Positions 1 to 284 of a stretch of DNA of 23,003 bases are shown here, piece after piece. The notes below the pieces were generated by a model. The model saw only the letters and a program-made list of their open reading frames with translations, was not told the DNA's origin and made no database searches. Position 1 is the stretch's first letter. Every line of letters begins with the position of its first letter. Origin of the DNA: a virus; IMG/VR virus record IMGVR_UViG_3300028892_000589, positions 1-23,003 of that record; one strand, written 5' to 3'. The translations under genes and the position numbers were made by a program.

Positions 1-51
1 GTGACCAAAAAATCTAAAGAACAGGTTATCGATCGATTAAACAATTTGTAA
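1..51 (+). CDS. int: Tyrosine integrase, 3' end only
   Basis: The window opens inside an open + strand frame whose last 16 codons read VTKKSKEQVIDRLNNL followed by TAA at 49-51. This resembles the tail that follows the catalytic tyrosine in phage tyrosine recombinases, where the sequence typically runs Y-(S/T)-H-V-T-x-K. The catalytic residues lie outside the window, so the identity rests on this short tail plus context: it ends directly beside repeated arm-like motifs and an attP-like core, and it faces the late genes, the usual orientation of int in Gram-positive temperate phages. It would catalyse insertion and excision at the host attachment site. Confidence 0.75.
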   Translation: MTKKSKEQVIDRLNNL

Positions 52-70
52 TTTGCCCCTTTTTTGCCCC
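52..70 (+). repeat. Integrase arm-type site, left pair (direct repeat copy 1)
   Basis: The 19-bp sequence TTTGCCCCTTTTTTGCCCC begins right after the integrase stop. It consists of two TTTGCCCC motifs with an 11-bp period, about one helical turn. An exact copy lies at 266-284. Paired short direct repeats on both sides of a core are typical arm-type binding sites for the N-terminal domain of tyrosine integrases. The role is inferred from layout. Confidence 0.65.
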
Positions 71-98
71 TTTTGTATAAAATTAACATTAAACAAAC

Positions 99-129
99 AA
101 AAGAACCCCTATAAATAGAGGTTCTTTTA
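99..129. terminator. Bidirectional intrinsic terminator in attP
   Basis: AAGAACCCCT (101-110), a short AT-rich loop and AGAGGTTCTT (117-126) form a 10-bp stem with one mismatch. It is followed by TTTTAT on the + strand and by a T-rich tract on the minus strand. On the + strand it would end int transcription. On the minus strand it lies just downstream of the GroEL-like MGGMM-stop core, so after integration it could act as the new terminator of host groEL. Confidence 0.7.
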
Positions 130-135
130 TTATAA

Positions 136-153
136 CTACATCATGCCGCCCAT
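136..153 (-). other. attP: attP core matching the 3' end of groEL
   Basis: On the minus strand these 18 bases read ATG GGC GGC ATG ATG TAG, which is Met-Gly-Gly-Met-Met-stop, the characteristic end of bacterial GroEL. The preceding in-frame minus-strand codon is TAG and no GroEL-like coding lies upstream, so this is not the host gene itself. It sits between the paired arm-type repeats, 85 bp from the integrase stop. The simplest reading is that the phage core copies the last codons of groEL so that insertion leaves the host protein intact. The exact crossover cannot be seen here. Confidence 0.7.
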
Positions 154-265
154 CTAAGGTTGTCTGACACACTCATTTACACTAGTATAAAAATGCCTAT
201 ATAACAGCCTTTTGATCAATTTCAATTACAAAAATAATTCGACTAGTTCGAACTAATAAAGTTAT

Positions 266-284
266 TTTGCCCCTTTTTTGCCCC
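266..284 (+). repeat. Integrase arm-type site, right pair (direct repeat copy 2)
   Basis: Exact second copy of the 19-bp paired TTTGCCCC motif, again with an 11-bp period and the same orientation as the left pair. The 214-bp offset between copies, with the groEL-like core between them, fits the P and P' arms of an attP. It ends 19 bp before the -35 box of the SOS promoter, so integrase binding could touch that promoter. Confidence 0.65.

Follow-up and report, generated by a model that had tools for sequence, protein, structure and literature searches.

The question raised by this locus is whether a phage that carries a copy of the end of the chaperone gene groEL integrates at that gene and, if so, what the insertion does to groEL. 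The DNA analysed was the 23,003-nt virus record IMGVR_UViG_3300028892_000589, the whole of which is called the window here, and the region of interest lies at positions 52-284. As set out below, we consider it very probable that a temperate tailed phage uses this region as its attP and integrates at the groEL end, with the arms, core and hairpin in the roles proposed here.

Layout of the candidate attP

The integrase gene is cut by the contig end, and only its last 16 codons and the stop codon (49-51) are present (1-51, plus strand). The C-terminus, VTKKSKEQVIDRLNNL, is the same as the ends of the 379-aa integrases of the related contigs L003, L006 and L007. The L007 homologue matched Pfam PF00589 (8.9e-25), which identifies it as a tyrosine recombinase, and the Pfam search found no arm-binding domain in it. 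A 313-aa lipoprotein-like gene adjoins the integrase in relatives (L006, 6488-7429; L003, 10244-11185). Elsewhere, the window carries phage genes including those for terminase, endolysin and holin. When phage records were searched with the window by blastn and megablast, E. gallinarum phage records were matched, and the attP region was without a match. Judging by these matches and by the enterococcal relatives among those described below, the host group is most likely the enterococci.

The first-pass annotation had reported two exact 19-bp paired repeats beside the integrase stop and, on the minus strand, the GroEL ending MGGMM-stop at 136-153, both of which were borne out. The repeats are direct and read on the minus strand; one (P' arm, GGGGCAAAAAAGGGGCAAA) lies at 52-70 and has the same position in attL of relatives, and its exact copy (P arm) lies at 266-284 and is also present in attR of relatives. 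Each repeat holds two GGGGCAAA units 11 bp apart. This unit occurs exactly four times in the window, all within the two repeats, as compared to 0.70 expected occurrences, and four were reached in one of 100 shuffles. No third copy of the 19-bp repeat was found in the whole window with up to 3 mismatches (mean by chance, 0.01), and thus repeats unique in the window flank the core on both sides. We infer from this arrangement that the tyrosine integrase binds the paired GGGGCAAA arm repeats on either side of the core. Between the core and the P arm lies an imperfect palindrome centred on TTCGAA (231-268), kept by eye in L004, L006 and L088, which may be the site of an accessory protein, possibly an excision or repressor protein. 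Phage records were also searched at a loose limit with the L007 junction, whose arm part spans L007 1685-1713. Among the best 20 of 140 records, Streptococcus phage records matched the arm repeat over 29-31 bases (E 0.01-0.6), with 2-4 such places in each record, suggesting that the arm motif may be common to other phages; three unannotated records (H30-H32) matched the groEL part of the junction, and the other rows among these 20 look like chance.

Junctions at the groEL end in relatives

A 38-base pattern consisting of the core and the first half of the hairpin retrieved six IMG/VR contigs. Three of them (L004, L006 and L008) are window-like. In the other three (L003, L005 and L007), a complete 542-aa groEL, identified as GroEL by NCBIfam in L007, leads into the core, behind which come the hairpin, the arm and the 379-aa integrase as in the window, so that the reading frame of groEL is intact at attL. 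These three are all the same-type contigs with host flank, and their integrases are 98.7-100% identical to that of L007. The comparison of same-type prophages that had been called for thus placed every one of them at groEL. No integrase of the window's type was found at another locus, and other genes appeared only further out in the family.

Both ends of an insertion were recovered on one contig in four of the nine records searched for the groEL end, 35-46 kb apart: 38.9 kb in G001 (Enterococcus termitis), 34.8 kb in G004 (Lactococcus laudensis), 45.8 kb in G007 and 42.1 kb in G008. In G003, attL and attR were on two separate contigs, and the remaining four records had one site each. The attL of G007 consists of ATGGGCGGCATGATGTAG and the phage hairpin, and its attR of the phage left arm, ATGGGCGGCATGATGTAA and the host hairpin. 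From these G007 flanks, an attB was predicted that agreed with the native groEL end L090 at 607 of 618 positions (9 mismatches, 2 gaps) and with L091 at 612 of 619 (3 mismatches, 4 gaps), while the occupied right flank, used as a control, shared 153 and 152 of 300 positions with L090 and L091, respectively. The attP predicted from G007 had 431 identities with the window over 453 positions. The lysogens compared here are near relatives of the window's phage, none of that phage itself having been found, and it is in these relatives that a core equal to the host site, together with attL and attR, was observed. The proposal that the phage inserts at the groEL end and leaves the coding end in place is therefore supported by the attL, attR and empty attB of relatives.

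These junctions also fixed the limits of the core. On the minus strand, 153-136 reads ATGGGCGGCATGATGTAG and encodes MGGMM-stop. The first-pass annotation had taken all of 136-153 as the core, and its identity with groEL held up but its extent did not. Comparison of the attB and attP predicted from the G007 flanks with empty sites and the window showed that phage and host share a core of 17 bp, the end of which falls within the stop codon of groEL. This core, ATGGGCGGCATGATGTA (137-153, minus strand), equals the last 17 nt of the near-host groEL up to the TA of the stop codon. The stop codon carried by the phage is completed by base 136, which is G in the phage and A in the near host and is thus the first phage-specific base. 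Accordingly, the stop codon in the window's type is TAG at attL versus TAA at attR and attB. G004 showed the same difference between its ends, as did another enterococcal type, with TAG at attL (L232, L264 and L334) and TAA at attR (L234, L243, L248, L291 and L299) and at the native site L112. In some phages the stop codon is unchanged, TAA being found at both ends in G001 and G008. At a wobble base, phage and host cores match each other: the window's type has GGC in both, the L081/L112 type GGT.

The distribution of the site was assessed in Enterococcaceae, for which 103 groEL ends were obtained from 105 genomes, one genome per species. The 17-bp core was exact in 55, had one mismatch in 36 and at least two mismatches in 12; MGGMM-stop was the ending in 93 of the 103. 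Most of the enterococcal species examined, thus, carry the docking site exactly or with one mismatch.

Two readings would deny that the window holds a groEL-directed attP. As MGGMM-stop is such a common GroEL ending, the groEL-like core could be a chance or generic GGM-repeat match in a phage that integrates elsewhere, and among the matches listed many loci fit an 18-bp pattern although no groEL or related integrase was recognised in their vicinity. However, attL, attR and the empty attB of close relatives match up at the level of single bases, which makes this reading extremely improbable. IMG/VR contigs are often proviruses, and the window could on that account be a prophage edge, attL or attR. 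This too is very improbable, although a shade less so: the window has the integrase end on one side and an arm followed by phage-like genes on the other, as in the attP contigs L004 and L006, the window-like contig L008 ends shortly past the P arm, and groEL sequence is absent upstream of the core in the window.

Based on the junctions of relatives, integration at groEL proceeds as described below. Strand exchange occurs within the 17-bp core that copies the groEL end up to TA. The groEL of the lysogen keeps its full protein sequence, and takes the third base of its stop codon from the phage (TAA to TAG in the window's type). The phage hairpin comes to lie behind groEL, where it would serve as a new terminator, and the terminator hairpin native to the host ends up at attR, on the other side of the prophage. 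As the integrase gene is convergent with groEL, the hairpin would in addition protect int from antisense transcripts that read through from groEL. This provides a base-level account of how a phage could dock at a chaperone gene with the gene product unchanged.

The hairpin behind groEL

A hairpin past the stop codon had been noted at 99-129 after a spacer of about 7 bp. The hairpin itself was confirmed, but those limits mark only the centre of the stem; the full stem has 16 pairs, spans 131-96 on the minus strand and begins 4 nt past the stop codon, with its GAACC part beginning at nt 12. The fold of minus-strand 153-91 had a z value of -4.35, and none of 200 shuffles was as stable. The stem-loop is followed by a T-rich run on the minus strand, as in intrinsic terminators, and a scan for consensus terminators flagged the hairpin on this strand only. 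A strong stem starting 5-10 nt past the groEL stop was present in 10 of 12 related junctions, with the GAAC part at a fixed place, nt 11-12 past the stop, in all 10; the two Lactococcus junctions L011 and L023 had only weak hairpins (-3.5 and -4.5 kcal/mol). Changes on both sides were seen at four stem pairs across the 12 junctions, a count made without statistical control. The 12 were hand-chosen and are partly related (the stem of L003 is that of the window but for a single base), and near-duplicates such as L005, L007, L264, L255 and L300 were left out. From structure and conservation, we infer that the phage hairpin terminates groEL transcription.

DNA of this kind also remains behind groEL where no complete prophage is found. 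With up to 2 mismatches allowed, the paired arm motif occurred in nine of the 103 enterococcal groEL flanks, 45-95 nt past the stop, and among 17 other bins of these flanks it was absent from 16 and present once in the other. Integrase matches (E up to 0.01) were found in seven of the 103 flanks and in none of the 103 reversed flanks; one of the seven, L160, is marginal (E 0.004), and two, L121 and L181, are complete prophage ends. Eight of the 103 groEL ends were assigned as decayed attL scars, five with integrase tails (L095, L105, L115, L160 and L171) and three with arms only (L123, L130 and L142), although the eight are not to be counted as independent events, as species may share ancestry. 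In all eight, the 1,100 nt searched held a broken integrase or none that was detected, and a stem of 11-15 pairs followed by a T run was present, with zero or one of 200 letter shuffles as stable. However, since a terminator-like stem lies within 80 nt in 75 of all 103 groEL flanks, eight of eight is little above the base rate, and retention by selection is only suggested. A further count, which gave 6 among the 10 flanks with a scar or a prophage and 12 among the other 93, was set aside because the pattern used was too strict. Docking, thus, can leave lasting DNA behind groEL.

The role and the origin of the hairpin are each open to another reading. Rather than serving groEL, it could mainly terminate the integrase gene, its place after groEL being incidental. 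It does sit between the int stop and the core, its plus strand folds too (-11.5 kcal/mol), and two related junctions go without a strong hairpin; a part in terminating int on the other strand is accordingly possible. As the main role, this is nevertheless rather unlikely, given that the GAAC part lies at a constant distance from the groEL stop in the 10 strong cases and that the scars keep hairpin and T run with the integrase broken or undetected, the latter a weak argument at the base rate given above. As to origin, the phage may have captured terminator and core from a host groEL rather than donated them to hosts, a reading to which we give somewhat less than an even chance. Judged by eye, the window's hairpin and spacer closely resemble the native flank L093, and those of L232 resemble L098; against this reading, phage-type DNA is seen in the scars to stay at groEL. 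Returning to donation by the phage, the evidence is about evenly balanced for the broader proposal that groEL-docking prophages repeatedly donate a terminator, sometimes along with a new stop codon, that this module is kept by selection after decay as the rest erodes, and that a share of enterococcal groEL genes now have terminators of phage origin.

Known systems and targets of the integrase family

Mycobacteriophage Bxb1 likewise uses a groEL gene, groEL1, as attB, but has a serine integrase and interrupts groEL1 rather than preserving it. Phage 21 and the element e14 integrate in icd of E. coli and supply an alternative 3' end of the host gene, as here, although the gene is different and the replaced coding tail is longer. 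Staphylococcal PICIs are small satellites without phage structural and lysis genes, and the window, with its terminase, endolysin and holin genes, is not of this kind. Among these PICIs, SeCISE48 and its relatives integrate at the groEL 3' end, as the enterococcal phage does (PMC8125051); unlike the phage here, they are satellite islands of staphylococci, and the word "terminator" is absent from the main text of that paper. Geobacillus phage phiOH2 is described as a prophage next to groES/groEL with an integrase gene at its terminus, likewise, in another host (PMC3744691), and in PMC5341023, a figure legend gives groEL as one of the integration sites. Integration at the end of groEL is, thus, already known for the staphylococcal islands (PMC8125051). 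In titles and abstract openings of the open-licence literature, no enterococcal or lactococcal phage at groEL was described among the matches listed. The present analysis adds the site of the enterococcal phage, mapped to the base, and the groEL scars.

Beyond the window's type, the target varies. Integrases 46-52% identical were found at groEL (L011, L012, L023 and L337), at gyrB (L042, L338 and L339) and at carA (L010 and others), and an integrase remnant at gyrB (L024) was 68% identical over 69 residues; NCBIfam supported GyrB for L042 and CarA for L044. Hence, the wider family is not tied to groEL as its target. At 19 genome loci, the gene beside the integrase was groEL in five (L009, L011, L012, L021 and L023), carA in one (L010), gyrB in one (L024) and none of these in 12. 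The corresponding figures for 48 viral loci were five (L028, L029, L032, L034 and L035), 11, one and 31, where L028, L029 and L032 are contigs of L007, L005 and L003, L035 looks the same as L009, and in many of the 31 the contig stops at the integrase or carries an attP. Among 295 genomes of the lactococcal family, eight gave nine matches, some of them in genomes already represented in the 19 genome loci, with groEL at four, gyrB at two, carA at one and none at two. An integrase search of the 105 Enterococcaceae genomes (E up to 1e-60) gave matches in 29; only G001 and G017 had one of 66-67% identity, both beside groEL, and for the other matches (37-44% identity), groEL, gyrB and carA were absent from the 1.5-kb flanks of the 28 loci fetched. 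Relatives of the integrase, thus, also lie behind the 3' end of gyrB or carA, and a hairpin and arm-like repeats were seen by eye between gene and integrase in L042 (4211-6226), L044 and L010, so that the family has switched between housekeeping genes (groEL, gyrB and carA).

The attR flank gave no match when plasmids were searched with it. In IMG/VR, distant integrases, only 25-30% identical, were found directly after groEL among the matches listed (e.g. L231, L241, L258, L275, L282 and L331), suggesting use of the groEL end by at least two integrase lineages. Sequences resembling AACCCTTGATATATCAAGGGTT were observed past the stop in many of the groEL contigs with distant integrases among these matches.
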